DNA of 64,000 nucleotides from the NCBI GenBank assembly GCA_019454045.1, contig SKCR01023420.1:310001-374000 (forward strand), written 5' to 3'. Below the pieces are notes generated by a model. It did no database searches, was not told the DNA's origin, and worked only from the letters and a program-made list of their open reading frames with translations. The position numbers and the translations under genes were made by a program. This DNA is from Zanthoxylum bungeanum. Its lineage: Eukaryota; Streptophyta; Magnoliopsida; Sapindales; Rutaceae. This document shows positions 3,251-54,825 of the stretch, piece by piece. How positions within the stretch are numbered: the stretch's first letter is position 1; the number at the start of each line of letters is the position of its first letter.

Positions 3251-3300
3251 CAAATAGCGATCGTGGTAAGAACCGTAATCTGGGCATAAATCTTAATCGG
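3251..3300 (+). pseudogene. Last codons of a captured LOG gene (A0 copy)
   Basis: The stretch beginning CGATCGTGGTAAGA aligns with the DRGKRRRINLDLNL end of the LOG ORFs at 39286 and 45724. The following sequence, through the 'AGCTAATCAGG' motif, also aligns with the DNA just downstream of those stops. Everything upstream of about 3240 is lost. This third copy shows that the LOG insertion was present in the common ancestor of the three elements. Confidence 0.6.
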
Positions 3301-3829
3301 TAATTTTTCCTAAAAACTTTCAGCTAATCAGGTATTACCTTCTAAACTTTTCTTCTACTGTTTAAGACATTGGGGACAATGTCTCATTTAGGTTTGGGGG
3401 AGGAAATTAGTTGATTCTTATCTTGTTTTTAGTTGTATGTTGTTTTTGTTTTTGTTCCAAATTTTTCGAAAAATACAAAAAAAATTGAAAAATTTTCAAA
3501 AATTACAAAAATATTTTGTGTTTTTGTTTTGACTAAGAATGTGAAATTGGTAAAAGATAGCCGAGTAAGGAGTTTCCACTCCTGAGACGTATTTCAAACC
3601 TATTTTGAAACAAGTTAATTTTTATTTCCTTTTAAATTATTAATTTGTGAATTCTCCTTAACACTGACTAAAATGGATCTTCATATACTCAGTTGGCAGG
3701 TATTATCAACATACATAGTAACATACGGACATGAGCTAAAATTGAAAAGTTTGTAATATTCAATACTCTAGTTTAATGAGAGGAAGCATCTCAAAAAAAC
3801 AATGGAGTAAAAAAAAAAAACGTCTGAGA

Positions 3830-22719: not shown

Positions 22720-22740
22720 CCAAGCCCCCACTTTGATGGG
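22720..22740 (-). other. B2 polypurine tract
   Basis: Minus strand ATCAAAGTGGGGGCTTGG abuts the 3' LTR start at 22719, the same place and core as in B1. Confidence 0.8.
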
Positions 22741-33663: not shown

Positions 33664-34313
33664 CAAGCCCTCAGAGTCTGAGATGTTGAAGCGAAGTGCG
33701 CCTCGTGATTCTTGCCCTTTAGGAGCTCTTTTTCTGCTTCACGTAGTGTGGACATCAACTCTCCAAGAGTTTGTTCTTGGTTCAACATATTATAGTTCAT
33801 GATGAACCCACTCCAAGTGTCGGGGAGAGAGTGTAGGATCAAATCTACTGAAGACTCAGCCTCAAAGACAATGCCCATTTGTCCCAGTTGTTCAATGTCA
33901 GCAATCATCTGTGACACATGGTGCTCACCAGACGTACCCTCTAACTTGCAAGCGCGGAAGAGCTTCTTCTGTAACTCATATCTTTGCGATCTAAGATTAG
34001 ATCGGTGAAGATCATGCAACTTCACCATCATCTCATAGGGATCCAATCCCTTATTTTGAAAACGGAATTGCGGAGTCATAGCAGCAAGCATTATCGATTG
34101 AGCAGTCGCGTTGTCATCGCTATGAGTCTTCCAAAGCTCTAGCTCAAGCAACTGATCAGGTCGGGGCTTAGGCCGAAGAGGTCTCCCTATGGTATAGAGT
34201 AACTTCTTGGATCCCAGGACAATCCTGAGATTCATATCCCAGTCTTGAAAATTTATGCCATTAAAGACATTATCGCCAATGATAATATCCATAATGCTTA
34301 ACTTTTCTGTCAT
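33664..34313 (-). pseudogene. Minus-strand copia gag (UBN2-like), cut by B2
   Basis: Starts MTEKLSIMDIIIGDNVFNG at 34313. It has the copia gag pattern: NGINFQDWDMNLRIVLGSKK, AMTPQFRFQ, YELQKKLFRACKLEGTSGEHHVSQMIADIEQLGQMG and LILHSLPDTWSGFIMNYNM, then LGELMSTLREAEKELLKG. This region is uninterrupted for over 200 codons. It ends at SQTLRAW, where B2 begins at 33663, and resumes as a Lys-rich stretch and the zinc knuckle at 19680-19829. Gag forms the particle; here the gene is split, so nonfunctional. Confidence 0.88.
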
Positions 34314-35784: not shown

Positions 35785-37970
35785 TGACCAGCGTAAACAC
35801 ACACGTATTACTCAAGCGCACGTATCGTTCAAGTAGTATAAAAATATCGATCCCACGAGGACTTAATTCCTACTGTTGTTATTAATTATTGAATCTATTT
35901 ATTTACAAATATCTAATTGAGGGTGAAGAGAATGATTGCTTGATTGATTTGGTTGATTGTAGTTTTGCAAAATAAATAAATAAATAAAAAGACAAAAGAA
36001 AATACTAAGGAAAATAAAAAAAAAATACACAAAGATCTAGGGTTGTGAATCATTCTAATATCTTTAAAAGATGAAGTGATTATTTTATGTTTGTGTAATA
36101 AATCAGTTTACTAACCTGGAACACGAAATTATGCAAAAGCATATGTCGATGGTCAGACGCAAATACCCAGTTTAACCCAATTGAACCATATATCTATGTC
36201 AACCAAATTATCTGGATTCATTAAGTTTAAGTTCCAATTATGGCTACCCCCGCCCGACAGGTATATGTCTATCCTGCAAGGAAATCTATTAAAGGGTTAA
36301 CTATCCTCAAGGAAGATCATGGGCTATTAAGTCTAAGGCTGAAACCTAAAATCCATATGTCTAGTTCATTTTAGATTTACCACATCAATCTTATTGGTGA
36401 TCAGACAACAAGAAGCATTAAGCTTAAGACTTAATAAGTAAACCTTTAAATTACCCAAACTATAAAATAACCCCTTATAAACCGGTGATATTAGAATTCA
36501 TCACAACCCCAGATAACTAACACATAACTAGGGCTAGTAAAGACTTACAAGTAAAAGACATAAAGTAAAAATGCTGAAAAGTAAATTGCTGAAAAGTAAA
36601 TGACGGAAAGTAAATGCTGAAATTAAATACTGAAATTAAATGATGAAAAGTAAATGTTGAAAGTAAATTGCTGAAAAGTAAATGCTGAAAGTAAATTGCT
36701 GAAAAGTAAATGCTGAAAATAAATTGCTGAAAGTAAATTGCTGAAAAGTAAATGCTGAAAGTAAATTACTGAAAAGTAAATAAAGTAAAAGTACAATAAA
36801 AGAAAATGCTGAGGTAAAAGGATCTACTTTTATTACTTCTATTTTAGATATATCCCTTAATATAATATATTAACTTTGCATGATAATTACCAACCAGCCA
36901 TATAGGCGGTATCCAGATTAAGTCAAATTAATAATTAATTACCAACCGACCAATCAGGCGGTATCCAGTTTAGTCAGGTTAAAACCAATTTAAATAATTA
37001 CCAACCGACCAATATGGCGGTATCCTCGGTAAGTCATGTTTTAACTAGTTTATATATTATAATTAAGGGAGATTAATCTAAATATTAGTAATAAATGTTT
37101 TATCTTTTACCCCAGCAAATGGGAGTTACCTCCTCATTACTGAAAAGTAAAAACTGAAAATTAAAGAAAGAAAAGTATTGTGCGTAAAAGTAAATTGCGG
37201 AAAGTAAAAATTGAAAAGTAAAGAAAAGAAAGTGCGAAAGCGGAAATTAATTACTGAAAGCTGTAAATAAACAAACAAGATACAATCTTCTTAGTATTCT
37301 TAAGAAATTCCTTAGAAGAAAGTATGAATTTACAAATGAAATGGCTTGGTATTTATAGGCAAAATTTTGCCTCCATCAAATCATCCACCAAATCAATTAT
37401 TAATTGCTCCACTAATTGCTCCACCAAATCCATTATTAATTGCTCCACTAATCTCTTATCATTTTTTGTGGTGATTTGATAATTTTTATTATTTATTTAT
37501 TAATTTATTTTTTGCTTTGAAAATGATTGAAAGTGACTTTAATAATTACACACAACACACTTCTGGATGGTTCATCAATTTCGGGAATGAAATCTTTAGA
37601 ATTCGAAATTATTTTATCTTTCAAAGCTGTAGATCTTTGAGTCTTCTTTAATCTGGAACTTGAATCAGCTAAATTGGATATCGGAGTAAAACGTTATGCC
37701 CAAAATACGACAGATACACAAAACTGGAATTTCCAAAACTGCACTTCGTTAAAACGCCCCTTCAAGTTTCCAATCTCCAAAATTAATATGTCAAGTCCAA
37801 TTTTTGCCCTTATTTGACCCATATTTCGTCCTAAATGATTTCATTAAGTCCCAATATTATTTTATCTGCAAAATAAACTAAAACATATAAAAACGTTTAT
37901 CAAACCCGAGATACTAAACAAAATATTAAGTAAAATAGGCGGTAAATATTGATATATTTTCCGCTCATCA
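35785..37970 (-). repeat. A1 3' LTR (2.2 kb)
   Basis: Minus strand TGATGAGCGGAAAATATATC (37970) to ACGCTGGTCA (35785). Contains the TATA region near 37350, the three CCGACCAAT blocks (36885-37030) and the AAGTAAATTGCTGA array (36555-36790). Pairs with the split 5' LTR. Confidence 0.88.
36555..36790 (-). repeat. Short-unit minisatellite in A-family LTR
   Basis: Tandem 13-15 bp units of CTGAAAAGTAAATTG type. Counterparts lie at about 43040-43225 and 50890-51085 (A2) and 52665-52905 (A1 5' LTR), with different unit numbers. Phe/Ser-rich ORFs predicted over it (43041-43238, 50896-51102, 52741-52977) are artefacts. Confidence 0.8.
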
Positions 37971-39285
37971 CACCCCAAAAACTAACATTTTGCTAGTCCT
38001 CGAGCAAAACAACAAAATAAAATATAAGAAACAATTAAAATTTAACTAAGCCACTTTCGTAGGGATCACGGTTGCATTTAACATATGCAACAAGCCTTTA
38101 AACCCCTAGGTGTCCCTAGTGGACGAGTTATAGTCTCGTCAGGGCTTACACCAACGATACCCACAAACGTTTTACAAAAGTAAACAGATAATAAAACTAA
38201 TGCACACAAAAGCAAAAAGACAAGCGAAAAGAGAATAAAGATGTTAGTGACTAATCAGGTGAAACTTCTACTCCAATTACTAGTTGTTTTCTTTCATTCT
38301 AAATTACTGAATAAGTAAATTCTCCGATTATATTTACCATTCTCCATATGCACAACCATCAAAATATTAAACAACTCATTTTTGCCACAACAGTCATAAG
38401 TGCAGTTGATAAGAGAGTAATATTTTTGTCCTAAAGTTTTATCAGAATTCACACCTTTTTGCAGCAATGGAATAATTTTTCGGATTTTTCTGATTTTTTT
38501 CTTTGATTTTTTTTTATTTATATACAATACCTTCCGTCTATGTAGCGAGTGTTGGGTCGGTGACTCCCAAACCAGTTGGCTTTAGGGCACCAGGTGTTAA
38601 GACACCCCTACGGACTTAATTACTCAGACTTTAGATATATATATTGTTGGAACATCTTTGATCCATGTAGCGAGCTTTGGGCCAATGACTCCCAAACCAG
38701 TTGGCTTTAGGGCACTAGGTGTTAAAACACCCTTATAGACTTAATAACTCGGATCTTATAATTTTTTTTTACTCCATTGCTTTTTGAGATGCTTCCTCCA
38801 ATTAAACTATATCACTGAATATTACAAACTTTTCAATTTTAGCTCATGTCCGTATGTACTATATATGTTGATAATACCTGCCAACTGAGCATATGAAGAT
38901 CCATTTTAGTCCGTATTATGGAGAATTCACAAATTAAATAATTCAAAATGAAATAAACAAAATTAACTTGTTTCAAAAATGGTTTGAGATACGTCTCAGG
39001 AGTGAAAACTCCTTACTCAACCATCTCTTACCAATTTCACATTTTTAGTCAAAATAAAAACACAAAAACGCAAAATATTTTTGTAATTTTTGAAAATTTT
39101 TCAATTTTTTTTTGTATTTTCGAAAAATTTTGGACTAAAAATAAAAATAACACACAAACTAAAAACAAGGTACTAATCAACTAATTCCCTCCCCCAAACC
39201 TAAATGAGACATTGTCCTCAATGTCTTAAACAATAAAAGGAGAGTTAAGAAGGTTGTATCTGGTTAGCTGAAAATCTACAGGAAA
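37971..39285 (-). other. A1 PPT and 3' noncoding region
   Basis: Begins with the purine tract (minus strand TTTTTGGGGTG next to the LTR) and the 'CTCGAGGACTAGCAAAATG' motif. It then has the pair of GCCAACTGGTTTGGGAG repeats (about 38560-38740) and an AT-rich stretch to the LOG stop. The same 1.3-kb region follows LOG in A2 and A0. No coding potential. Confidence 0.7.
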
Positions 39286-39935
39286 TTAAAGGTTAAGATC
39301 CAGATTAATCCTACGCCTCTTACCACGATCGTCCTCGGACCAATTTATCTTTGAAAGGATATGGTCAACTTGTGGTTCATAGGCTAAGAGTTGGTCTATT
39401 AGATCCGGAGCAGTTCTGGCAGTAAAGAGGAGTTCTTTCAAAGGTTTTGACACGAACTCATTTCTTCGGGCATCATCAAGAAACACACAAAGAAAATCAT
39501 AAAATCCATCAATGTTGTACAGTCTAAGTGGTTTCTGGTGTATGTTCAGGTTCGCCCAAGATAGAACTATAAAAATTCCTCCAATGTACCCAAGCCACCT
39601 GGCAAAGCAATAAAATCCTCAGCACGGTTAATCATTTCTACCAAACGTTCAGACATACCTGGCACGATCAGTTCCTCTTCGTTTGATGGTTCAATAAGAT
39701 TTGCCTATGTCAAGGGTTTTGGATGATTCCCAAAACGTGACCGCCTCCCTCCTGTAGCCTTTGAAACGATCCCCATTAGTCCAAGATTGTCTCCGCCATA
39801 TATTAAGTGCATATTCCTTGCAGCTAAGACTCAACCCAATTCCTGTACTGCTTCTACGTATTGTGGCTTAACACCAACACTACAACCGCAAAACACACAG
39901 ATGTTTTCAACTCGTCTTCTTGAAGTGGCTTCCAT
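39286..39935 (-). pseudogene. LOG-like: LOG cytokinin-activating enzyme, captured copy in A1 (decayed)
   Basis: Starts MEATSRRRVENICVFCG at 39935 and ends NLDLNL at 39286, matching the A2 copy throughout. Visible pieces are LIYGGDNLGLMGIVSKA, ELIVPGMSERLVEMINRA and ALPGGLGTLEE, the LOG signature. A TGA after QELG, a second stop near PKPLT and at least two frameshifts (near 39725 and 39570) break it. It keeps CAA (Gln) where A2 has a TAA stop, and GGD where A2 has GRG, so the two copies decayed independently. LOG enzymes release active cytokinin bases from nucleoside monophosphates; this copy cannot be active. Confidence 0.88.
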
Positions 39936-39989
39936 TTTTATATATTTCTTTCTTAAATCTGGATGCCTGCCAAAGTGCAATGACGAGCT

Positions 39990-39998
39990 GAATTTATA
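39990..39998 (-). promoter_or_regulatory. TATA-like box and CAG site upstream of captured LOG
   Basis: Minus strand TTTTCAGGTACTATAAATTCAGC lies about 60 bp before the LOG ATG (40012-39990, described by position). A2 has CAGGTACAATAAATTCAGC at 46450-46431. The TATAAATTCAGC core equals the TATA context of the A0 LTR (5351). The preceding pyrimidine run plus CAG could instead be a splice acceptor. Function inferred. Confidence 0.4.
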
Positions 39999-40019
39999 GT
40001 ACCTGAAAATGGTGAGCAA

Positions 40020-40310
40020 TAATAGCACTAATATCTTCCAAAGGACGATTGTTAGCTAAACAACAAAAGAAATCGTGAAAGGTCAAAAAAATCTGGATCA
40101 TGTCTACGAAAATAAAGATAATTACAACAGAAAAGTGAATCAAAGCAATAATTAAGGCAACAGAATTGTGTACGCAATACGCCACTCGTTTGGTATATAA
40201 ATCCATTAGGATGCGTCTCAAGATTTCATTCCTTACTCAGCCATCGCTAATGAGTTGGTTCTCATCTTTGTGATTACCAAACACCATTCCTTCTATCTTA
40301 AAATGCTGCG
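40020..40310 (-). pseudogene. Remnant of the virus-like Cys-rich gene (C-terminal part), A1
   Basis: In the minus strand a stretch reading NHKDENQLISDG aligns with NREDKIKFISDG of the A2 ORF at 46638-47186, and the DNA around GGATGCGTCTCAAGA is shared (40208-40222 and 46789-46803). The N-terminal half with the GRSTYAKKR block and Cys cluster is absent. The copy has stops. Confidence 0.55.
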
Positions 40311-40465
40311 TTTGTGTTTTCCCTACAAAACAACACACAAAATTAAAAACTCTACAACATGTATACACAAAATATGAAAACAGAAATTACAACAAATTGC
40401 ATGGGTTGCCTCCCTGCTAGCGCTAAATTTTTCGTATTTAGCCAGACGTGACTGAAATCCATCTG

Positions 40466-41755
40466 TCAATGAGGTTTCAGCGTCATTTTGGATGTCCGAT
40501 TAAAGACAATCCCATGAGCGTTGCTTTTGAAGGGTCTCTTCCAACGGTAAGGTAGCAGAAAATATTTTGTCCCATTTAGTGCTTGTGCCACCTTTTTGCT
40601 CCTTGTTGCTCCAGTGGTTCCTGCAAAGAAAGAAAGAAAGTCAGTAGGTCTCGTATGGTGCTTGACTTGGAATGGGAGTTCCATTCTGTCAAGCTTCTGG
40701 GCGATATCTTTGATTTGTACTCCCCAAAATAGCGATGTTTCTCCTGAATGCTCTAGATCTTTATTAAGGTCAGACATTTGCTCATCCATTTGCTCTACTT
40801 CTTGCTCCCCCTTTTCTTCACAGATGTATTTGAAAATTTCTGCATTCAACTCTTCATCTGTCATCTGTGAAATACATGCTTCAAAATTGTCAACCTGAAG
40901 ATGAAAAGATGTTTCTGACATTAGGTTTTCATCCTCTGATACGACTGGAATGGATGGTTCAGATAGATCTTCTTCAAACATCATGGTAAAGCATGCTCCA
41001 AGATCTTCATTTTGAGGATTAAAAGTTTGATCCTCCGTTGTTGGTGCAGTTGGTACAAATAGATCAGTTTCATCCTCGTCAGAATCTGAATAATAAAAAT
41101 CAAATCGGGACTTTGCCGGTTCGGGCTCCTGAACTGATGCCTTTGATTCTTGATTCTGCTCAACCTTCTCTTCTGCTAAAGTGTCATCGTGAAATGCTTG
41201 GTACTCGAAGGCTTCATCTGAAAATGGTCATTGAGGTATGTAGCTCTGGTTTTCTGTTAATTGTCTGATCTACTGAGTCATTTTCTAAATTGGTGTTGAT
41301 TGTCTCTGAATACTTTCGAGTTGATTCTGGAATGTTTCAAGCATTGTATCCAATTTTTCATCTCGTTTCTTGAACACATCTTTGAGCATGTCAATCATCT
41401 GATCTTCTTCTGATTGTTCTGATTGTTGATGAAGATCATTGTAGGTGGGTGGTGGATAAGATGGAAAATGTGGTTCTGTGAAATGTGATGGCTCGTCATA
41501 CCATGAAGGATCTTGATAGCTCTGCTACCCTGGATGGTAGTTGTATTCGCAATAATCTCTAGGGTGGTTACCATTACATATGTCACATCTCCCCATTATG
41601 TTCTGTTGAGTAAATGTAATATTGCTTGGTTCTGGCATCCGGTGATAATTGTTGGGCTGGACAACAGGCCTCAGAAAACCGGACTGTTGCTCCCAGATGT
41701 GGGGTGTATCTTCTTGTAAAGCATGTAATCTTTCAATCTCCCAATAATGTTCCAT
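40466..41755 (-). pseudogene. A1 first ORF: gag-like protein with zinc box and acidic tail
   Basis: Begins MEHYWEIERLHALQED at 41755, about 110 bp after the PBS, the position of gag in A2. Residues 55-67 read CDICNGNHPRDYC, a C-x2-C-x3-H-x4-C zinc box. Then come a Gln/Glu-rich stretch (DEKLDTMLETFQNQLESIQ), a very acidic section (YYSDSDEDETDLF) and, after stops at about 41525 and 41275-41285, an uninterrupted 172-codon end. That end (40466-40984) reads from MMFEEDLSEPSIPV to LLPYRWKRPFKSNAHGIVFN. It does not match the A2 gag. I do not recognise the C-terminal part. It probably helps package RNA or is a relic of an unrelated Athila-type gag. Confidence 0.6.
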
Positions 41756-41861
41756 TTTTCAATCACCTGAAAAATAAAAGAAGGAAATAAAAATTACAGA
41801 TAAAGAAAATTAGATACAAGTAAATTAGATAGCGTCAAAATTAATAATTTAAGAAAAATAA

Positions 41862-41880
41862 GTCCCCGGCAACGGCGCCA
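41862..41880 (-). other. A1 primer-binding site (tRNA-Asp)
   Basis: Minus strand TGGCGCCGTTGCCGGGGAC, five bases inside the LTR end at 41886; complementary to plant tRNA-Asp, the primer used by Athila elements. Confidence 0.85.
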
Positions 41881-41885
41881 AAACT

Positions 41886-42249
41886 TGACCGGCGTAAACA
41901 GACACGTATAACGCAAGCGCACGTATCGTTCAAGTAGTATATAAAATATCGATCCCACGAGGACTTAATTCCTACTGTTTTTTTATTATTATTGAATCTA
42001 TTTATTTACAAATATCTAATTGAGGGTGAAGAGAATGATTGCTTGATTGATTTGGTTGATTGTAGTTTTGCAAAATAAATAAATAAATAAAAAGACAAAA
42101 GAAAATACTAAGGAAAATATCAAAGATCTAGGGTTGTGAATCATTCTAATATCTTTTAAAAGATGAAGTGATTATTTTATGTTTGTGTAATAAATCAGTT
42201 ACTAACCTGGAACACGAAATTATGCAAAAGCACCATCTTCGATGGTCAG
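41886..42249 (-). repeat. A1 5' LTR, segment left of A2
   Basis: Minus-strand 3' end of the LTR (ends ACGCCGGTCA at 41886), matching 35785-36155. Interrupted after GTCAG (42245-42249) by A2; continues at 52257. Confidence 0.88.
42245..42249 (+). repeat. Target-site duplication of A2, left copy
   Basis: GTCAG, repeated at 52257-52261. The intact A1 3' LTR has a single GATGGTCAG at the matching position (near 36150), which proves the site is duplicated. Confidence 0.92.
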
Positions 42250-44395
42250 TGACCGGCTTAAACACACACGTATAACGCAAGCGCACGTATCATTCAAGTA
42301 GTATAAAAATATCGATCCCACGAGGACTTAATATCTAATCTATTAATTTTATGAGGTCAAATGATTACTAGTATCTAACAGGTTGTTTGATTGATTTGAA
42401 ATGGTGACGATTCTAAATTTAAAAACAAGTAAATAACATTGTTCGAAAGTATATTTTAAGAAAATTTAATATTAAAAACTATCTAGGGTTGTGATTTCTT
42501 CCAATATCATTTTAAAGATGAAGTGGTTATCTTAAAGTTGGGTAATATATTGATTTATTAACCTGGAACACTAAATTATGTGTAAGCCTCTGACGATGGT
42601 CAGATACAAATACCCAGTTTAACCCAATTGAACCATATGTCTATGTCAACAAAATTATCTGGATTCATTAAGTTTAAGTTCAAATTATGGCTAACCCCCG
42701 CCCGACAGGTATATTCCTATCCTGTAAGGAAATCTATTAAAGGGTTATCTATCCTCAAGGAAGATCGTGGGCTATTAAGTCTAAGGTCTTAAACCTAAAA
42801 TCCCTATGTCTAGTTCATTTTAGATTTACCAGTTCAATTTTATTAATGGCCAGTTAATAAAAAGCATTGGATTAAGACTCAATAAATAAACCTTTATATT
42901 ACCCAAACTATAATTTAACCCCTTATAAACCGTGATATTGGATTTCATCACAACCCCAGATAACTGGCTTAGTTACGACACATATTTACAGGTAGTAAAA
43001 ACTTAAATAAAATAAAAGACATAAAGTAAAATACTAAAAATTAAATACTGAAAAGTAAATTGCTAAAGTAAATGCTGAAAGTAAATGCTGAAATTAAATA
43101 CTGAAAATTAAATGCTGAAAAGTAAATGCTGAAAGTAAATTGCTGAAAGTAAATTGCTGAAAGTAAATTGCTGAAAGTAAATTGCTGAAAAGTAATGCTG
43201 AAGTAAATTGCTGAAAAGTAAATAAAGTAAAAGTACAATAAAAGAAAATGCTGAGGTAAAAGGATCCGCTTTTATTACTTCTATTTTAGATATCTCCCCT
43301 TAATATAATATATTAACTTTGCATTATATTACCAACCAGCCATATAGGCGGTATCCAGATTAAGTCAAATTAATAATTAATTACCAACCGACCAATCAGG
43401 CGGTATCCAGTTTAGTCAGGTTAAAACCAATTTAAATAATTACCAACCGACCAATATGGCGGTATCCTCGTTAAGTCAGGTTTTAACTAGTTTATTTATT
43501 ATAATTAAGGGATTAATCTAAATATTAGTCATAAAATTTTTACCTTTTACCCAGCAAAGGGGAGTTACCTCCTCATTACTGAAAAGTAAAAATTGAAAAT
43601 TAAAGAAAGAAAAGTATTGTGCGTAAAAGTAAATTGCGGAAAGTAAAAACTGAAAAGTAAAGAAAAAAGTGTGAAAGCGGAAATTAATTACTGAAAGCTA
43701 TAAATAAACAAACAAGATACAATCTTCTTAGTATTCTTAGGAATTCCTTAGAAGAAAATATGAATTTTACAAATGAAATGGCTTGGTATTTATAGGCAAA
43801 ATTTTGCCTCCATCAATCATCCACCACCAAATCAATTATTAATTGCTCCACCAAATCCATTATTAATTGCTCCACTAATCTCTTATCATGTTTGGTGATG
43901 ATTTGGTAATTTTTATTTTATTTATTAATTTATTTTTTGCTTTGAAAATGATTGAAAGTTACTTTAATAATTACACACTACACACTTCTGGATGGTTCAT
44001 CCATTTCGGGCATGAAATCTTCCGAATTCGAAATTATTTTGTCTTTAAAAGTTGTAGATATTTGAGCCTTCTTTAATCTGGAACTTGAATCAGCTCAATC
44101 CGATATCTGAGTAAAGAGTTATGCCCAAAATACGACAGATGCGCAAAATTGGAATTTCCAAAACTGCACTTCGTCAAAACGCCCCTTTCAAGTTTCCAAT
44201 CTCCAAAATTAAAATATCAAGTCCAATAATTGCCCTTATTTGACCCATATTTCGTCCTAAATGATTTCATTAAGTCCCAATATTATTTTATGTGCAAAAT
44301 AAACTAAAACACATCAAAACGTTCATCAAACCCGAGAAACTAAACAAAATATTAAGTAAAAGGGGCGTAAATATTGATATATTTTCCGCTCATCA
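42250..44395 (-). repeat. A2 3' LTR (2146 bp)
   Basis: TGATG...(44395) to ...CCGGTCA (42250) on the minus strand. The end segment 42335-42450 differs from A1 and A0 (which have TTGAGGGTGAAGAGAATGAT there), while the rest is shared, so A2 has an exchanged U5-side block. TATA region near 43790. Confidence 0.9.
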
Positions 44396-45723
44396 CACCC
44401 CCAAACCTAACATTTTGCTAGTCCTCGAGCAAAACAAAAAAATAAAATTAAAATTAAACTAAGCCACTTTCGTAGGGATCACGGTTGCATTTAGCATATG
44501 CAACAAGCCTTTAAACCCCTAGGTGTCCCTTGTGGACGAGTTGTAGTCTCGTGAGGGTTTACAGCAATGATACCCACAAACATTTTACAAAAGTAAAAAG
44601 GTAGTAAAACTAATGCACACAAAAGCAAAAAGACAAGCGAAAAGAAAATAAAGATGTTAGTGACTAATCATGTGAAACTTCTACTCCAATTCAATAGTTG
44701 TTTTGTTTCATTCTAAATTACAGAATAAGTAAATTCTCCGATTATTTTTACCATTCTTCATATACACAGCCAACAAAATATTAAACATCTCATTTTTTTC
44801 CCACAACAGTCATAAGTGCAGTTGATAAGAGAGTAATATTTTTGTCCTAAAATTCTATCAGATTTAACACCTTTTGGTAGCAATGGAATAATTTTTCTCA
44901 TTTTTCTGATTTTTTCTTTGATTTTTTCTTTTTCTATTTTTTTATTTATATACAATATCTTCCATCTATGTAGTGAGTGTTGGGTCGGTGGCTCCCAAAC
45001 CAGTTGGCTTTCGGGCACCAGGTGTTAAGACACCCTTACAGACTTAATTACCCAGACTTCAGATATATATATTTTTTGCAGCATCTTTGATCCATGTAAC
45101 GAGCTTTGGGCCAGTGACTCCCAAACCAGTTGGCTTTAGGGCACTAGGTGTTAAAACACCCTTACAACTTAATAACTCGGATCTCAGACGTTGTTTTTTT
45201 TTTTTTTTACTCCATTGCTTTTTGAGATGCTTCCTCCAATTAAACTAGAGCACTGAATATTACAAACTTTTCAATTTAGCTCATGTCCGTATATTACTAT
45301 ATATGTTGATAATATTGCTAACTAAACATATGAAGATTCCTTTTTAGTCAGTTTTAAGGAAACTTCACAAATTAAATAATTCAAAATAATATAAACAAAA
45401 ATTAACTTGTTTCGAAATAGGTTTGAGATACGTATCAGGAGTGGAAACTCCTTACTCAGCTATCTCTCACCAATTTCACCCTTTTAGTCAGAATAAAAAC
45501 AAAAACACAAAATATTTTTGTAATTTTTGAAAATTTTCCAATTTTTTTTGTATATTTCGAAATATTTTGGACTAAAAATAAAAATAACACACAAACTAAA
45601 AAAACAAGGTACTGATCAACTATTTCCTCCCCAAAACCTAAATGAGACATTGTCCCTAATGTCTTAAACAGTAAAAGGAGAGTTAAGAAGGTTGTACCTG
45701 GTTAGCTGAAAATCTACAGGAAA
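44396..45723 (-). other. A2 PPT and 3' noncoding region
   Basis: Minus strand GTTAGGTTTGGGGGTG abuts the LTR (44396-44411). The region contains the GCCAACTGGTTTGGGAG repeat pair (about 44995-45135) and no coding potential. It is nearly collinear with A1 37971-39285. Confidence 0.72.
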
Positions 45724-46377
45724 TTAAAGGTTAAGATCCAGATTAATCCGACGCCTCTTACCACGATCGTCCTCGGACCAATTTATCTTTGAAAGGATAG
45801 GGTCAACTTGTGGTTCATAGGCTATGAGTTGTTCTATTAGATCCGGAGCAATTCTGGCAGTGAAGAGGAGTTCTTTCATATGTTTTGACACGAACCCATT
45901 TCTCCGAGCATCATCCAGAAACACACAAAGAAAATCATAAAATCCATCAACGTTGAGCAGTCCAAGCGGTTTCTGGTGTATGTTCAGGTTCGCCCAAGAT
46001 AGCACTATAAAAATTTCCTCCAATGTGCCCAAGCCACCTGGCAAAGCGATAAAAGCATCAGCACGGTTAATCATTTCTACTAGTCGTTCAGACATACCTG
46101 GCACGATCAGTTCCTCTCCATTTGATGATCCAATAAGATTTGCCTCTGCCAAGGGTTTTGGGATGATTCCTAAAACATGACTACCTCCTTCCTGTACGGC
46201 CTTTGAAACGATCCCCATTAGTCCAAGATTGCCTCTGCCATATATTAAGTGCATATTCCTTGCAGCGAAGACTCGACCCAATTCATGTGCTGCTTCTACG
46301 TATTATGGTTTAGTACCAACACTACTACCGCAAAACACACAGACGTTTTCAACTCGTCTTCTTGAAGTGGCTTCCAT
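45724..46377 (-). pseudogene. LOG-like: LOG cytokinin riboside 5'-monophosphate phosphoribohydrolase captured by A2
   Basis: Starts MEATSRRRVENVCVFCG at 46377; 217 codons, the usual LOG length, and no introns although host LOG genes are normally interrupted. One in-frame TAA at codon 25 (46303-46305) replaces a Gln codon kept in A1. Otherwise the frame is open from codon 26 to 217. LOG family marks: LIYGRGNLGLMG at 44-55 (usual GG replaced by GR), Arg98 in MSERLVEM, and the signature PGGLGTLEE at 113-121, the phosphoribohydrolase active site. HQKPLGLLNVDGFYD follows. The family converts cytokinin nucleotides to active free bases in the cytosol. The tail ends KRRRINLDLNL. Identity is confident; activity is doubtful because of the stop and G48R, unless translation restarts downstream. 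Confidence 0.92.
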
Positions 46378-46637
46378 TTTTATATGTATTTCTTTCTCAA
46401 CTCTGGATGCCTTCAAAAGTGCAATGACGGGCTGAATTTATTGTACCTGAAAAAGGGTGAGTAATAATAGCACAAGTATCTTCCAGAGGAGGATTAGTAG
46501 CGAAATAATATCGTGTAAGTCAAAAAGGTCTGGATCCTGTCTACGAAAATAAAAGAAAACAACAAAATAAATCACAATTATTAGGAAAAGACAAAGAGAT
46601 ATAATATTTACAAGAAAAGTAACGGCTTGATTGACGT
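46378..46637 (-). other. Spacer between virus-like ORF and LOG in A2
   Basis: 260 bp without an ORF. Contains the minus-strand CCTTTTTCAGGTACAATAAATTC block (46458-46436) also present before LOG in A1, a possible splice acceptor or promoter. Confidence 0.5.
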
Positions 46638-47186
46638 CTATGCGTCAAGGACAAGCTTCCCATCCAATTTTCTTATAAATTGGCAAACATGGTCTTTTTG
46701 AGTCAGATTCCCGAGACTTAACAGTTGTCTTTCCTTTTTGAATTGTGTATGTAATTTGCGAATGGCTATATGAACATATCCACTGGGATGCGTCTCAAGA
46801 GTTGAAGATATTTCATCTACAGACTCCTTACTCAAGCCATCACTAATGAATTTAATTTTGTCTTCGCGATTATCAGACACCATTCCTAAAGAACGACAAC
46901 AAGTGTTGCAATTAAATCGTGCACATTTGTAACAATCACCCATTTGCTTAGCTATACGTTTCTTTGCATAGGTGCTTCTTCCAAAACCAGGCAGATGTGA
47001 AATAAAAGAGTCAGAAGACTCACCTGCCAATCGGATTCGTGCTTCAATTACCCAACGAATATCATTAGGAATACCATTGATCATCAGTAGTCTCATTCGT
47101 TTTAAGCGAGCTTTATAGACTTTCATCAGAGATTTTTGAGGCAGGGAAGGGAATTACTTGTGAAGATTTGCGAGAGCTTCTTCCAT
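46638..47186 (-). pseudogene. Cys-rich, basic ORF resembling carlavirus-type nucleic-acid-binding protein
   Basis: ATG at 47186, one TAA at codon 11 (47154-47156), then open for 162 codons from MKVYKARLKRMRLL at 47126. Counting from that Met, a hydrophobic/basic N-terminal part is followed by GRSTYAKKR (49-57) and, eight residues later, C65-x2-C68-x4-C73-x2-C-C77. The pattern 'GRS.YA, basic run, G-x-C-x2-C' is how I recognise the small Cys-rich RNA-binding proteins encoded at the 3' end of carlaviruses and relatives, which bind nucleic acid and can act against silencing. The Cys spacing after the second Cys is shorter than I would expect, and a roughly 75-residue C-terminal extension has no match I know. 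Alternative: an Athila-specific env-position protein. No membrane segment is visible. Confidence 0.5.
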
Positions 47187-47344
47187 CTTAAAATGACTAA
47201 ACCTGCAAAAATTAAACACACAAAAATAAAACACACCAAATCACAATATATACACACAATTGCATGGGTTGCCTCACTGCTAGCGCTAAGTTTAAAGTCG
47301 TCAGCCAGACTTGACTTCTCGAACGTTAAGCTGGATCTGAAAGT

Positions 47345-47690
47345 GTAACACTTTCTTTTTGTCGCTCAAATGATTCTCCCCAGTAGTGCTTGACACGCTT
47401 GTTTTTAACCTTGAAAGTTTGGCTGGAGTCAGGATCATGTATCTCAACGGCTCTATTTGGTAGAACTTTGGTGATCACAAATGGACCTGACCACCGTGAT
47501 TTTGGCTTCTATGGGAAGAATTTCACCCTTGATTTGTTTAACAGTACCTTCTGCCATGGTTCCAGTTGTATGCGCACTAACTTCTCATCATGTCTTTTCT
47601 TGCCATTTTCTTTGTACAATTTGGCATCCTCAAAAGGCTGATTGTGAAATTCCTCCAATTCGTTGAGCTGGTGGAAAGTTTTCTCTTATG
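47345..47690 (-). pseudogene. A2 integrase C-terminal tail
   Basis: Minus strand reads KETFHQLNELEEFHNQPFEDAK, then ENGKKRHDEKLVRIQLEPW and GPFVITKVLPNRAVEIHDPD, and ends VKNKRVKHYWGESF. This is the usual end of Athila integrase (GPFxV.KV.P.GAVEI followed by VNGxRLKHY). It begins right after the protease, so RT, RNase H and the integrase zinc finger and core were removed by one large deletion near 47690-47718. Stops are present. Confidence 0.8.
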
Positions 47691-47717
47691 TTGCTTGTAG
47701 TGCAAGAATTGGCTCAT

Positions 47718-48600
47718 TTAGTACAAAAGACGCTTTTCTTTAGGCTCCACATGCAATTGACATGTTTTAAGTTTGTCAGTAGAACTTTGTCTTTCATCAG
47801 AGTTCTGAATGGTACTGTGTATCACATCGAGTTTGAAACATTCCTCATTCTTTTCATCATCTGGGAAATTCATGGCCTTGAAAACATTGAATGTTACTTC
47901 TTGGTCTTGTACCCTCATGGTTAATTCTCCTTTTTGTACATCAATAATGGTTCGACCTGTAGCCAAGAATGGTCTTCCAAGGATGATTGGCACATCTGCG
48001 TCTTCCTCATATCAAGGACAATAAAATTTGTTGGGAAAATGATTTGTCAACTTTGACCAGCACATCCTCAACTACGCCTCTTGGAAATACTAGTGTTCTA
48101 TCAGCAAGTTGCACTGAGACTGATGTTGGCATTGTTTCTCCAATCTGTAATTTCCTGAAAATAGAAAAAGGCATCAAGTTAACATTAGCACCTAAATCAC
48201 ACAGAGCCTTACCAAAGTCATGTTCTCCTATGACGCAAGGAACAGTGAAACTGCCAGGATCTTTCAACTTTGGGGGAAGTTTCCTCTGAATGATAGCGCT
48301 GCATTCTTCTGTTAATGCTACTATCTTGTAATCTCCCAATCTCCTTTTTCGTGAAAGAATATCTTTCAGTAATTTGGCATATGTGGGCATTTGTTCCAAC
48401 GCTTCTGTTAATGGAATGTTGATATGCAGCTTTTTGAAGATTTCCAAGAACCGAGAAAATTGTTTGTCAATTTGTTCTTCTGAAGACGTTGAGGAAAAGG
48501 TGGAGGTGGAATGATCTGTTCTTTTTCCTTGCTTCTTTTTCCTCCATCTGTTGCTTTGTTTCTTTTGGAACTTCCTCAACAGCTGTTTTGGCTCCAACAT
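47718..48600 (-). pseudogene. A2 protease region
   Basis: Two overlapping open parts. The upstream part (48007-48600) contains KLKDPGSFTVPCVIG and ALCDLGANVNLMPFSIF, the Athila retropepsin active site (D-L-G-A). After a shift near 48000, PIILGRPFLATGRTIIDVQKGELTMRVQDQEVTFNVFKAM follows (47860-47993, two adjoining motifs), the standard protease end before RT. Here the deletion starts. Confidence 0.85.
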
Positions 48601-49980
48601 CTTTGTTGATTTCAGTACCGCTTTTTAACATGATGGCATGACATTGCTCCTTCCCCATGTTCCTTGGATTTGGCTCTGTGTTGCTAGGAAGGGTACCTGG
48701 CGGGGTCTGTAACTCTGAGCATTAGCCAGTGTCCAATTTGATTCTCCAGTGCTTTAATAGAAGCTGAATGGCTTTGATTGAATGTTGTTTGAGCTTGAAA
48801 CATAGCATCGTATTTTGCTTCTTGCTTTTTGAATATCTCTGCAAACCATTCTTTCATTTCTAGTTCATTTTCATGCTCCTGGACTTTGTTCTGCTGGTGG
48901 AATCCAGGTGGTGGATAGTTCTTTTGCCCTGAACTGTTGCTCCATGAAAAATTGGGATGATTTCTCCACCCAGGGTTGTAGGTGTTGGATATGGATTGTT
49001 CCCATGTCTGTTGAAATTATTGACATAGTTCACTGTCTCTTCCTGCTGAACTGGTTCTGGTGCTCCTCTATATGATGAACTTGTGGATCCACCATTAACC
49101 TTCATGTTAAGAGTTTCCAGATTTTTGCAAATCATATCCAGCTTGACATTCAGTGCTGTGTTGGCTCCAACTTCATAAATTCCTGCGATTCTTTGGATCA
49201 TGCTCCTTTCTGTTGGCCACAAAGAATTATTGTTGGCCATTTCTTCAATTAAATCCCAAGCCTGATCTTCTGCTTTTGCCATCAAAGCTCCTCCAGCAGC
49301 AGCATCAATTGTGGTTCTCATTATTCCAGAAAGTCCATTGTAGAAGGTTTGGACTTGTAGCCACTTTGCGATCTCATGATGATGACATTTTTGGAGTAAA
49401 TCTTTGAATCTTTCCCAAGCTTCGCAAAGGGATTCTGAATCTTGTTGTACAAAAGATGTGATGTCATTCCTCAGTTTTGCTGTTCTGGCTGGTGGAAAGT
49501 ACTTTGCAAGAAATTTGGTGGCTAAAGTGTTCCAAGTTGTGATAGAACCTGCTGGTAGTGAATGTAGCCATGCTTTAGCTCTGTCCTTCATGGAGTATGG
49601 AAAAACACGCAGTCTCATTGCTTCTTCAGCTGCTCGGTTGTAATTGAAAGTGCCGCAAACTTCCAGGAAGTTGCTGATGTGAGCATTAGGATCTTCAGTT
49701 GCATTTCCCCCAAACTGTACTGACTGCTGAATCATCTGGATGCATGTTTTGAGTCACCTGCATTTGCTGGTAAGGGAGGAAGTACAATACAAGAAATGAG
49801 TCTGTCAACCACCGGAATTGTTCTGCCTCGAATGGGAATTGGTGGTGCAACCTCCAAAGGTTCATGTTCCATGTTAACAATTGCTTCTTGGCCTTCTCGC
49901 CTTTCCCTTCTCAACTGTCTAATGGTTCTTTCAATTTCTGGGTCAAGCGGTCGAAATTCAAAGCTTCTGGTTCGTCTCAT
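48600..49980 (-). pseudogene. A2 gag (Athila-like)
   Basis: ATG at 49980 (MRRTRSFEFRPLDPEIERTI). After a frameshift near 49740-49770 the main gag domain follows: EDPNAHISNFLEVCGTFNYN, LRVFPYSMKDRAKAWLHSLP, ATKFLAKYFPPARTAKLRND, FVQQDSESLCEAWERFKDLL and VQTFYNGL. This is the classical Retrotrans_gag pattern. A second shift near 49000 interrupts the NPY.....PGWRNHPNFSW motif typical of Athila. The rest, down to the protease, is present with stops. Confidence 0.88.
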
Positions 49981-50085
49981 GTAGTTTCTGAGAACCTGAA
50001 ACACAAGAAAACAAAAACAATAAGTAAAAAGAAATTAGATACAAGTAACGTATATACCCCAAAACTAATAGTGAAAGATAAATAA

Positions 50086-50104
50086 GTCCCCGGCAACGGC
50101 GCCA
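50086..50104 (-). other. A2 primer-binding site (tRNA-Asp)
   Basis: Minus strand TGGCGCCGTTGCCGGGGAC, six bases from the LTR end at 50111; identical to A1. Confidence 0.87.
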
Positions 50105-50110
50105 AAAACT

Positions 50111-52256
50111 TGACCGGCGTAACACAACACGTATAACGCAAGCGCACGTATCGTTCAAGTAGTATAAAAATATCGATCCAACGAGGACTTAATATCTAAT
50201 CTATTAATTTTATGAGGTCAAATGATTACTAGTATCTACAGGATGTTTGATTGATTTGAAATAGTGACGATTCTAAATTTAAAAACAAGTAAATAACATT
50301 GTTCGAAAGTAGATTTTAAGAAAATTATATTAAAAACTATCTAGGGTTGTGATTTCTTCCAATATCATTTTAAAGATGAAGTGGTTATCTTAAGTTGGGT
50401 AATATATTTATTTATTAACCTGGAACACTAAATTATGTGTAAGCCTCTGACGATGGTCAGATACAAATACCCAGTTTAACCCAATTGAACCATATGTCTA
50501 TGTCAACCAAATTATCTGGATTCATTAAGTTTAAGTTCAAATTATGGCTACCCCCGCCCGACAGGTATATTCCTATCCTGTAAGGAAATCTATTAAAGGG
50601 TTATCTATCCTCAAGGAAGATCGTGGGCTATTAAGTTTAAGGTCTTAAACCTAAAATCCCTATGTCTAGTTCATTTTAGATTTACTAGTTCAATTTTATT
50701 AATGGCCAGTAATAAAAAGTATTAGGATTAATACTCAATAAATAAACCTTTATATTACCCAAACTATAATTTAACCCCTTATAAACCGGTGATATTAGAT
50801 TTCATCACAACCCTAGATAACTGGCTTAGTTACGACACATATTTACAGGTAGTAAAAACTTAAATAATAAAAGACATAAAGTAAAATACTAAAAATTAAA
50901 TACTGAAAGTAAATTGCTGAAAAGTAAAATGCTGAAAAGTAAATGCTGAAATTAAATACTGAAAATTAAATGGTGAAAAGTAAATGTTGAAAGTAAATTG
51001 CTGAAAAGTAAATTGCTGAAAAGTAAATTGCTGAAAAGTAAATTGCTGAAAAGTAAATGCTGAAAAGTAAATTGCTGAAAAGTAAATAAAGTAAAAGTAC
51101 AATAAAAGAAAATGCTGAGGTAAAAGGATCCGCTTTTATTACTTCTATTTTAGATATCTCCCTTAATATAATATATAACTTTGCATGATAATTACCAACC
51201 AGCCATATAGGCGGTATCCAGATTAAGTCAAATTAATAATTAATTACCAACCGACCAATCAGGCGGTATCCAGTTTAGTCAGGTTAAAACCAATTTAAAT
51301 AATTACCAACCGACCAATATGGCGGTATCCTCGTTAAGTCAGGTTTTAACTAGTTTATATATTATAATAAAGGGAGATTAATCTAAATATTAGTCAAAAA
51401 TGTTTTACCTTTTACCCCAGCAAAGGGGAGTTACCTCCTCATTACTGAAAAGTAAAAATTGAAAATTAAAGAAAGAAAAGTACTGTGCGTAAAAGTAAAT
51501 TGCGGAAAGTAAAAACTGAAAAGTAAAAAAGAAAGTGCGAAAGCGGAAATTAATTACTGAAAGCTAAAATTAACAAAAAGATACAATCTTCTTAGTATTT
51601 TTAAGGAATTCCTTAGAAGAAAGTATGAATTTTACAATGAAATGGCTTGGTATTTATAGGCAAAATTTTGCCTCCATCAAATCATCCACCAAATCAATTA
51701 TTAATTGCTCCACCAAATCCATTATTAATTGCTCCACTAATCTCTTATCATGTTTGGTGATGATTTGTAATTTTTATTATTTATTTATTAATTTTTTTTT
51801 GCTTTGAAAATGATTGAAAGTGACTTTAATAATTACACACTACACCTTCTGGATGGTTCATCAATTTAGGCCATGAAATCTTCAGAATTTGAAATTATTT
51901 TGTCTTTCAAAGTTGTAGATACTTGAGTCTTTTTTAATCTGGAAATTGAATCAGCTCAATCCGATATCTGAGTAAAACGTTATGCCCAAAATATGACAGA
52001 TGCGCAAAACCGGAATTTCCAAAACTGCACTTCGTCAAAACGCCCTTTCAAGTTTCCAATCTCCAAAATTAAAATATCAAGTCCAATAATTGCCCTTATT
52101 TGAACCCGTATTTCGTCCTAAATGATTTCATTAAGTCCCAATATTATTTTATCTGAAAATAAACTAAAACACATCAAAACGTTCATCAAACCCGAGAAAC
52201 TAAACAAAATATTAAGTAAAAGGGGCGGTAAATATTGATATATTTTCCGCTCATCA
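50111..52256 (-). repeat. A2 5' LTR (2146 bp)
   Basis: Same length as the 3' LTR and differing from it by scattered substitutions and short indels. Contains a minus-strand TATA box CCTATAAATA at 51651-51660, the CCGACCAAT triplet (51190-51330) and the short-unit array (50890-51085). Confidence 0.9.
51651..51660 (-). promoter_or_regulatory. TATA box of A2 5' LTR
   Basis: CCTATAAATA on the minus strand, preceded by GGCAAAATTTTG. The same motif is at about 43787-43796, 37346-37356 and 53468-53478. Unlike A0, no G-box cluster precedes it. Confidence 0.6.
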
Positions 52257-54102
52257 GTCAGTCGCAAATACCCAGTTTAACCCAATTGTTCCATACATCT
52301 ATGTCAACCAAATTATCTGGATTCATTAAGTTTAAGTTCCAATTACGGCTACCCCCGCCCGACAGGTATATGTCTATCCTGCAAGGAAATCTATTAAAGG
52401 GTTATCTATTCTCAAGGAAGATCGTGGGCTATTAAGTCTAAGGCTGAAACCTAAAATCCCTATGTCTAGTTCATTTAAGATTTACCACATCAATCTTATT
52501 GGTGATCAGACAACAAGAAGCATTAAGCTTAAGACTTAATAAGTAAACATTTAAATTACCCAAATTAAAAAATAACCCCTTATAAACCGGTGATATTAGA
52601 ATTCATCACAACCCCAGATAACTAACACATAACTAGGGCTAGTAAAGACTTACAAGTAAAAGACATAAAGTAAAAATGCTGAAAAGTAAATTGCTGAAAA
52701 GTAAATGACGGAAAGTAAATGCTGAAATTAAATACTGAAATTAAATGCTGAAAAGTAAATGCTGAAAGTAAATTACTGAAAAGTAAATGCTGAAAGTAAA
52801 TTGCTGAAAAGTAAATTGCTGAAAAGTAAATCCTGAAAGTAAATTGCTGAACGTAAATTGCTGAAAAGTAAATGCTGAAAGTAAATTGCTGAAAAGTAAA
52901 TAAAGTAAACGTACAATTAAAGAAAATGCTGAGGTAAAAGGATCCACTTTTATTACCTCTATTTTAGATATATCCATTAATATAATATATTAATTTTGCA
53001 TGATAATTACCAACCAGCCATATAGGCGGTATCCAGATTAAGTCAAATTAATAATTAATTACCAACCGACCAATCAGGCGGTAACCACTTTAGTCAGGTT
53101 AAAACCAATTTAAATAATTACCAACCGACCAATAAGGCGGTATCCTCGTTAAGTCAGGTTTTAACTAGTTTATATATTATAATTAAGGGAGATTAATCTA
53201 AATATTAGTAATAAAAGTTTTACCTTTTACCCCAGCAAAGGGGAGTTACATCCTCATTACTGAAAAGTAAAAACTGAAAATTAAAGAAAGAAAAGTATTG
53301 TGCGTAAAAGTAAATTGCGGAAAGTAAAAACTGAAAAGTAAAGAAAAGAAAGTGCGAAAACGGAAATTAATTACTAAAAGCTGTAAATAAACAAACAAGA
53401 TACAATCTTCTTAGTATTCTTAAGGAATTCCTTAGAAGAAAGTATGAATTTACAAATGAAATGGCTTGGTATTTATAGGCAAAATTTTGCCTCCATCAAA
53501 TCATCCACCAAATCAATTATTAATTGCTCCACTAATTGCTCCCCTAATTGCTCCACCAAATCCATTATTAATTGCTACACTAATCTCTTATCATGTTTGG
53601 TGGTGATTTGATAATTTTTATTATTTATTTATTAATTTATGTTTTGCTTTGAAAATGATTGAAAGTGACTTTAATAATTACACACAACACACTTCTGGAT
53701 GTTTCATAAATTACGGGCATGAAATCTTTAGAATTCGAAATTATTTTGTCTTTGAAAGCTGTAGATCTTTGAGTCTTATTTAATCTGGAACTTGAATCAG
53801 CTCAATCCGATATCGGAGTAAAACGTTATGCTCAAAATACGACAGATGCACAAAACTGGAATTTCCAAAACTGCACTTCATTAAAACGCCCTTTCAAGTT
53901 TCCAATCTCCAAAATTAATATGTCAAGTCCACTTTTTGCCCTTATTTGACCCATATTTCGTCCTAAATGATTTCATTAAGTCCCAATATTATTTTATCTG
54001 CAAAATAAACTAAAACATATCAAAACGTTCATCAAACCCGAGAAACTAAACAAAATATTAAGTAAAAGGGGCGGTAAATATTGATATATTTTCCGCTCAT
54101 CA
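52257..54102 (-). repeat. A1 5' LTR, segment right of A2
   Basis: Resumes with the duplicated GTCAG and TCGCAAATACCCAG, matching A1 3' LTR from about 36151 to its start at 37970. Ends TGATGAG on the minus strand at 54102. Confidence 0.88.
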
Positions 54103-54825
54103 CAACCCAAATACCAAAGCCCAATAAAAGAATCACCCTATTTGCCAAGAAACCAATTTCGGCCCATTAGGCCCAATTAAACATAAAAGGCTCATTTGTC
54201 ATATTTGGACTTAATGGAATGGTTTAGGCCCAATTTGGATCCAATCCAATTGACCTAAACAAACTTGGCCCAACCAAGCCCATTAGGCCAAAATACAACA
54301 TTATAAGCCCAATTCTAAATTAAGCCCAACTAATTAAATTTTAATATTCCAAATATCATGATTTAATTAATTAAAGTGCTTAGCCATGATTAACTATTTA
54401 AATTAACATTTCCAAAATACTAATCTAATCAATAATCATGCTTATTCATAATCAATACATGTCCAAAATAATTTAAACAAAATCAACTCATTTCCATGCT
54501 TAAAGCTCACGGCATTAGTAGGGATTTTATATCTGATTCCGATTTCAATCTGATTGAATCTCAAATCAATATTTCCCAAGTCTTTAAACTCATCCAATGA
54601 TCAAAAGAAAAAAAAATACCACGACTTTAGGGCATATATGTATTCGGCCAAGCCTAAGATTTTGGGCAAATTTAATCCAATTAATTTTTTTCTAAAATTG
54701 ATCATGCATAACTCTAAGTTATCAACATACAAGCATACTCAAACAAACAATTGATTAAAACATGCTCAAATCAAAAATACCCAAATCAAGAATATAAACC
54801 CTAAATTCTATTTCATGCTCAATAA
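54103..54825 (-). other. Copia leader, distal part
   Basis: Noncoding sequence between A1 and the copia PBS, rich in GGCCCA/AAGCCCA motifs (54110-54320) and then AT-rich. No ORF of note. Confidence 0.6.

Follow-up and report, generated by a model that had tools for sequence, protein, structure and literature searches.

The LTR retrotransposon A2 of Zanthoxylum bungeanum carries, in its own sense orientation, a gene of the LONELY GUY (LOG) family. It lies in a window of 64,000 nucleotides, which is the whole stretch of DNA analysed here. The A2 copy of the gene is dead, as it holds an internal stop and the element around it is internally deleted. Next to the LOG gene lies a second ORF encoding a cysteine-rich protein. 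We tentatively propose, at somewhat less than even confidence, that the two ORFs are the remains of an old accessory module directed against host control. In this proposal, a spliced LOG capture with a changed pocket and an EAR-type tail would have been joined by a neighbour able to blunt silencing.

The LOG-family ORF of A2 (45724..46377, minus strand, read from 46377 to 45724) consists of 217 codons plus a stop codon, with a single internal stop at codon 25. Its open part (46302-45727, 192 amino acids) matches the Pfam profile PF03641 over positions 1-130 of 131 (E 4.9e-35) and PF18306 (E 6.2e-14). Among the structures of the PDB, the frame matches Arabidopsis At2g37210 (LOG3; 2a33, E 2e-50) and AtLOG8 (1ydh, E 1.2e-42). 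The LOG hallmarks are all there, namely PGGLGTLEE, following the PGGxGTxxE pattern, the catalytic Arg99, and Glu122. An earlier note on this DNA had described a 217-codon frame with one stop, the motifs PGGLGTLEE, MSERLVEM, and LLNVDGFYD, and an assignment to the LOG family. Direct translation returns the frame and all three motifs, and the PF03641 match agrees with the assignment. A reading of 45724..46377 on the plus strand is ruled out by 12 stops.

A2 as a whole occupies 42250..52256 on the minus strand. It has TG..CA termini and is bounded on either side by a perfect 5-bp target site duplication (TSD), GTCAG, read directly at 42245-42249 and 52257-52261. The self-comparison of the window places the 5' LTR at 50111..52256 and the 3' LTR at 42250..44395, and the pair is 95.8% identical over 2170 columns. 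The LOG gene therefore lies in sense orientation within an LTR retrotransposon, as had been claimed. On the minus strand, the components follow one another as 5' LTR, primer binding site, gag with a frame change, protease region, integrase tail, cysteine-rich ORF, LOG, about 1.3 kb without a recognised gene, polypurine stretch (about 44396-44410), and 3' LTR. The primer binding site TGGCGCCGTTGCCGGGGA (50087..50104, minus) recurs in element A1 at 41863-41880 and presumably matches the 3' end of tRNA-Asp, a type of site that we take to be linked to the Athila lineage. The gag (48863..49753, minus) matches PF03732 (E 8e-24), and its probable upstream part lies in another frame (50034-49735) and has no Pfam match. 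The protease region of gag-pol (48010..48624, minus) and the integrase C-terminal tail, formed by two open segments (47329..47685, minus), were assigned by eye, the former without a significant Pfam match and the latter without any. The earlier note had placed the LOG gene between the integrase tail and the polypurine tract; its site ahead of the 3' LTR holds, while the integrase end of that interval stays a by-eye assignment. A Pfam scan of 14 open segments (13 from A2, 1 from A1) returned no reverse transcriptase, RNase H, or integrase domain, so that A2 would be unable to move by itself. A2 is an internally deleted LTR element of a family in which two additional ORFs, both in sense orientation, lie between the pol remnant and the 3' LTR. 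The traits that we compared with Athila elements are the gag match, the primer binding site TGGCGCCGTTGCCGGGGA, and these extra sense ORFs in the 3' part.

Two features of the non-coding parts are recorded alongside. Between LOG and the 3' LTR, A2 (44947-45164) and A1 (38519-38735) each hold an imperfect duplication with a unit of about 92 nt and a spacing of 125-126 nt. The LTR copies contain an array of a repeat of about 14 bases that varies in copy number (36549-36781, 43010-43223, 50877-51087, and 52643-52901).

The LOG gene is shared by other members of the family within the window. Element A1 spans 35785..54102 on the minus strand, with its 3' LTR at 35785-37970, and A2 sits in its 5' LTR, which is thereby split into 41886-42249 and 52257-54102. 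The LOG-family copy of A1 (39286..39935, minus) has frameshifts and stops, and it ends in the same tail, GKRRRINLDLNL, as that of A2. Remnants of the cysteine-rich ORF are found in A1 at 40163..40290 (minus), where a short match of 20 residues and another of 17 each have an E of 0.003. A third, truncated element, A3, retains the last 16 codons and the stop of a LOG copy (3253..3303, plus), at the same place relative to the 3' region as in A1 and A2. All three LOG copies are broken. A1 (35785-40133) and A2 (42250-46567) align in one piece at 88.7% identity, through the LTR, the non-coding region, the LOG gene, and its upstream flank. Since A1 and A2 have the LOG gene, and A3 its tail, in corresponding positions, the gene belongs to the element family. 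A separate LOG insertion with its own boundaries, which the earlier note had named as one of the findings that would overturn its reading, is ruled out by the one-piece alignment.

Further observations concern A1 and its surroundings. No matching TSD was seen at the outer ends of A1. Just past the outer end of its split LTR, the stretch 54095-54125 resembles the polypurine stretch of the family and not a TSD, which suggests either that this LTR is shared with a further element or that the copy has recombined. An open frame of 253 amino acids (40469-41227, minus) lies between the primer binding site and the cysteine-rich remnant of A1, where gag-pol is expected; it gave no significant Pfam match, and tblastn found no second copy of it in the window. 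Elsewhere in the window, a large direct repeat (19829-22727 and 30694-33670) is about 95.8% identical across 2.4 kb and a further 0.5 kb.

A protein search with the LOG frame of A2 gave 7404 matches at E 1e-20 or better among 7999 scored candidates, and the best 120 of these 7404 are the listed relatives considered here. The closest of them are 76 to 88% identical to A2 and include four proteins of 217 amino acids (P0121, P0122, P0124, and P0127). Listed relatives with a species name come from Xanthoceras, Populus, Paulownia, Diplodiscus, and Reevesia, with more than one entry each and at 48 to 59% identity. A length of exactly 217 residues is seen in 69 of the 120, at 47 to 88% identity to A2. 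The AlphaFold model of the intact relative P0122 reaches a pLDDT of 90 or more in 151 of 217 residues and superposes on AtLOG3 (2a33) with 46% identity and an rmsd of 1.2. We infer that the listed relatives sit in elements. The Populus proteins P0170, P0176, and P0215 are annotated as 'probable cytokinin riboside 5'-monophosphate phosphoribohydrolase LOGL10', and P0170 has Leu and His at the positions of Lys100 and Glu125 of cytokinin LOGs. All three are probably element genes, and proteins labelled LOGL10 but of this kind call for caution in genome annotation. As a host control, we used the best 120 of 7325 matches to a fragment of AtLOG3, which are 76-98% identical to AtLOG3, together with a fragment of AtLOG8. 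As this control is limited to AtLOG3-like proteins and the AtLOG8 fragment, the changes in tail or pocket described below might predate the capture and have arisen in another host LOG clade. A tree of 108 rows separates A2 from both AtLOG3 and AtLOG8 and places it within starred sets of 8, 24, and 29 rows.

The most prominent changes are seen in the nucleotide pocket. In the numbering of CgLOG, Arg99 and Glu122 are the proposed catalytic residues, and Met96, Lys100, and Glu121 form the adenine site (PMC4979012). The proposed prenyl site consists of Met96, His97, Lys100, Glu125, and Trp129, all described there as identical in AtLOG3, OsLOG, and CpLOG (PMC4979012). A2 reads Met96, Ser97, Leu100, Ile125, and Trp129 at these positions; three of the five are changed, and the cytokinin-type prenyl/adenine pocket of AtLOG3 and CgLOG is thus not that of A2. 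Pocket residues were counted in 114 of the 120 listed relatives, the short proteins P0130, P0150, P0151, P0158, P0162, and P0181 being left out. The catalytic core is widely retained in these 114 (Arg99 in 102, Glu122 in 111), as is Trp129 (112). Of the 114, 104 lack both Lys100 and Glu125, 10 keep both, and none is mixed; every one of the 120 host proteins (best 120 of 7325) keeps both. On a tree of 120 rows, 14 of them host proteins, built without the pocket columns and the tail, the loss of Lys100 and the loss of Glu125 each require one change, on a branch with an SH-aLRT support of 76% only. We infer that the part of the pocket recognising the N6 side of the base was probably rebuilt in the LOG lineage, with the core retained.

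Arg99 itself is replaced in some relatives, by Gln in 11 and by Cys in 1 of the 114, with five changes on the tree. Catalysis may therefore be lost in some lineages. The Gln99 proteins include P0131, P0134-P0136, P0140, P0143, P0144, P0152, and P0154, six of these nine ending in LDIDLNR; among all 11, six carry this degraded tail and only three end in LxLxL. The tail left in A3, NLGINLNR, resembles the LDIDLNR tail of the Gln99 relatives.

The C-terminal tail of the A2 protein (GKRRRINLDLNL plus stop, 45724..45762, minus) combines a basic patch with an LxLxL sequence of the EAR type. The EAR consensus is LxLxL or DLNx(x)P (PMC9956375), and A2 ends in LDLNL, which follows the first form. An LxLxL end is found in 89 of the 120 listed relatives. 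Restricted to the 92 listed relatives of 205-230 amino acids, it is present in 77, a basic pair lies within the last 16 residues in 89, and 76 have both; by shuffling, the chance of an LxLxL end is 0.0016. Among 87 host proteins in the same length range, none has the LxLxL end, two have the basic pair, and none has both. Across the whole host set, LxLxL occurs in the last 12 residues of 0 of 120 proteins and a basic pair in the last 16 residues of 5 of 120. When relatives of 217 amino acids are thinned to less than 75% mutual identity, 9 of 12 end in LxLxL, and the other three in LDFNL, LDIDLNR, and DLNLTP. The last of these, in P0191, is the second EAR type. The LxLxL tail changes six times on the tree; with the five changes at Arg99, this means that neither feature is strictly fixed. 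P0178 carries the tail together with the old pocket; in nine other listed relatives, the old pocket occurs with no such tail. This pattern suggests that the tail is older than the pocket change. The AlphaFold model of P0122 leaves the tail disordered (pLDDT under 50 for residues 203-217), which fits a linear motif. An EAR motif alone is insufficient for interaction with TPL (PMC7446885).

To the first reading of this DNA we add a second ORF (46638..47186, minus, read from 47186 to 46638), situated between the integrase-tail stretch and the LOG frame. It has an internal stop at codon 11 and an open part at 47153-46641. This cysteine-rich ORF resembles carlavirus-type and viral nucleic-acid-binding proteins, matching PF01623 (E 2.4e-05) and PF05515 (E 4.1e-05) with scores just above the curated cut-offs (24.7 bits for a cut-off of 20.9, and 24.1 bits for one of 23). 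A search found 366 relatives, and the best 120 of these 366 were listed; those with a species name come from Xanthoceras, Populus, Acer, Rhamnella, and Orobanche. In 30 aligned relatives out of the 120 listed, at E 0.01 or better, PF01623 is matched by 26 (best 1.9e-07) and PF05515 by 25 (best 1.1e-08). The family comprises 182 amino acids, with conserved parts on both sides of the cysteine-rich core. The model of the relative P0001 has a mean pLDDT of 56.4, and a search of the PDB with its profile returned nothing convincing (best E 0.39). Among the viral contigs scanned, no relative of the cysteine-rich ORF or of its alignment was confirmed, and none of the LOG ORF. The neighbour could be an element gene derived from a virus, the source of a virus gene, or simply alike in its zinc-finger core. 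An indirect hint that the two ORFs co-occur elsewhere comes from P0022 (cysteine-rich) and P0196 (LOG), both JGI proteins, with a longest contig of 4511 bases. Some viral cysteine-rich proteins, for example the CRP of CYVCV, are described as suppressors of RNA silencing (PMC12172455).

Several other accounts of the LOG gene have to be weighed. That it is a host LOG gene or a separate retrogene, beside or into which the elements inserted, finds support in its general similarity to host LOGs only. We consider this next to negligible, given the alignment of A1 and A2 in one piece through the gene and both flanks, the enclosure of both copies within their own LTR pairs, and the end of the gene at the same place in A3; gene conversion is the sole proviso to the alignment argument. 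The gene might, in turn, be a functionless captured cDNA fragment kept by copying only, as would suit the decay of all three copies in the window. A1 and A2 differ in LOG by 18 changes per 145 synonymous and 27 per 485 nonsynonymous sites (dS 0.135, dN 0.058, dN/dS 0.43; Fisher p 0.009), a count of 45 changes in one pair of broken copies with the positions of four stop codons and the gapped codons left out. This ratio, though thin evidence from a single broken pair, points to some purifying selection before the copies decayed. The length of exactly 217 residues shared by 69 of the 120 listed relatives (identity to A2 from 47 to 88%), the core and tail kept in most of them, and the LOG domain reported in elements of Citrus and Populus (PMC9289625) speak against a passenger as well, and we hold this account to be quite improbable.

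Two further accounts assign the protein a function other than the one that we favour. As a plain cytokinin activator, the element LOG would free iP or tZ in one step and promote cell division or a cell state permissive for multiplication of the element. The family match, the PGGxGTxxE motif, the retention of Arg99 and Glu122 in A2 and most of the 114 relatives, the retained Met96 and Trp129 of the proposed prenyl pocket in A2, and the 10 relatives that keep Lys100 and Glu125 all agree with this account. Against it stand the changes of A2 at His97, Lys100, and Glu125 and the joint loss of the latter two in 104 of 114 relatives. Alanine substitutions in the AMP site of CgLOG almost abolish activity, S19A excepted (PMC4979012), which likewise argues against it. 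As the pocket is changed in A2 and in these relatives, release of active cytokinin is doubtful; the statement of the earlier note that the gene releases active cytokinin is not supported in that form, and on these sequence comparisons a hormone-activating enzyme is not the best-supported function of the element LOG. We regard plain cytokinin activation as rather doubtful. Somewhat less probable is a non-catalytic adaptor, in which the LOG domain would be a dimerising or ligand-sensing scaffold and the tail would do the work. The frame is conserved even where Arg99 is Gln or Cys, as an adaptor would allow, but Arg99 and Glu122 are kept in more of the 114 relatives (102 and 111) than expected if catalysis were dispensable. 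The degraded LDIDLNR tail in six of the 11 Gln99 proteins, against LxLxL in three, also argues against the tail as their function.

We postulate, in line with the accessory module proposed above, that a spliced plant LOG transcript was captured in the distant past, gave rise to the LOG ORF, and was maintained in an accessory role. The phosphoribohydrolase core would have been retained and the pocket for the N6 side of the base rebuilt, and the LOG lineage would have carried the C-terminal basic patch and LxLxL tail. Such a protein would most likely act in or near the nucleus, where its tail could recruit TOPLESS-type corepressors, and its LOG domain would bind or hydrolyse a nucleotide other than an ordinary cytokinin riboside monophosphate. 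The cysteine-rich neighbour is hypothesized to bind nucleic acid and to blunt RNA silencing, and the two proteins may jointly lower host control while the element multiplies. The neighbour in A1, which amounts to two short, weak matches only, is a point against joint action. A bolder version, which we think unlikely, would see a widespread lineage of eudicot LTR retrotransposons with a two-gene counter-defence module. Here, a virus-like silencing suppressor would be paired with a neofunctionalised LOG that has moved off cytokinin chemistry, acts on another host nucleotide, possibly an immune signal, and bears a TOPLESS-recruiting tail. If that were true, LOG would be an element-encoded nuclear effector. 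The element LOG has the fold of a known enzyme, lacks two pocket residues in common with most of its relatives, and ends in a specific linear motif, so that its function is directly testable.

Steinbauerova et al. reportedly described, in Genetica in 2011, two Athila-like elements with similarity to LOGL4. For Citrus and Populus, the presence of a LOG (YgdH) domain in elements of the Ty3/gypsy type is in print (PMC9289625, citing Steinbauerova et al.), and capture of LOG by plant gypsy elements is therefore already known and not new. These elements resemble A2 in having a LOG-family ORF as an extra gene of a plant gypsy element. They come from other species and copies, and the passage on this domain (PMC9289625) says nothing on the pocket, the basic and LxLxL tail, or the cysteine-rich neighbour. 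A search of open-access main texts found no mention of these three features. In the open-access literature, no paper on a LOG with an EAR tail was found, and the matches for a link between LTR retrotransposons and carlaviruses look unrelated. Reports of additional ORFs in plant LTR elements are frequent, and the roles of these ORFs are described as still unclear (PMC7264820).

Other systems share individual traits with A2. The AlkB/2-ODD domain of Phalaenopsis gypsy elements is likewise a host-like enzyme encoded as an extra ORF, which its authors relate to the surveillance of elements by the host (PMC9289625). It differs from the A2 LOG in enzyme, lineage, and ORF neighbours, and in vitro activity was shown for AlkB/2-ODD (PMC9289625); AlkB domains are described in viruses too. 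The downy-mildew effector HaRxL21 similarly places a C-terminal EAR motif on a foreign protein in the plant cell (PMC7446885). HaRxL21 is, however, a secreted pathogen effector with shown TOPLESS binding (PMC7446885), whereas the tail of A2 is a candidate for such a motif. Carlavirus-type cysteine-rich proteins (PF01623 Carla_C4, PF05515 Viral_NABP) and the neighbour ORF are alike in a basic stretch followed by a cysteine-rich, zinc-finger-like core. In contrast to the viral proteins, the neighbour is encoded by an LTR element and belongs to a family of 182 amino acids that is conserved outside the core as well. Host LOG genes have introns. Compared with AtLOG3 (2a33) and AtLOG8 (1ydh), the element LOG shares the fold, the PGGxGTxxE motif, and the catalytic Arg and Glu, and it differs in its changed Lys100 and Glu125, its added basic and LxLxL tail, and the lack of introns.
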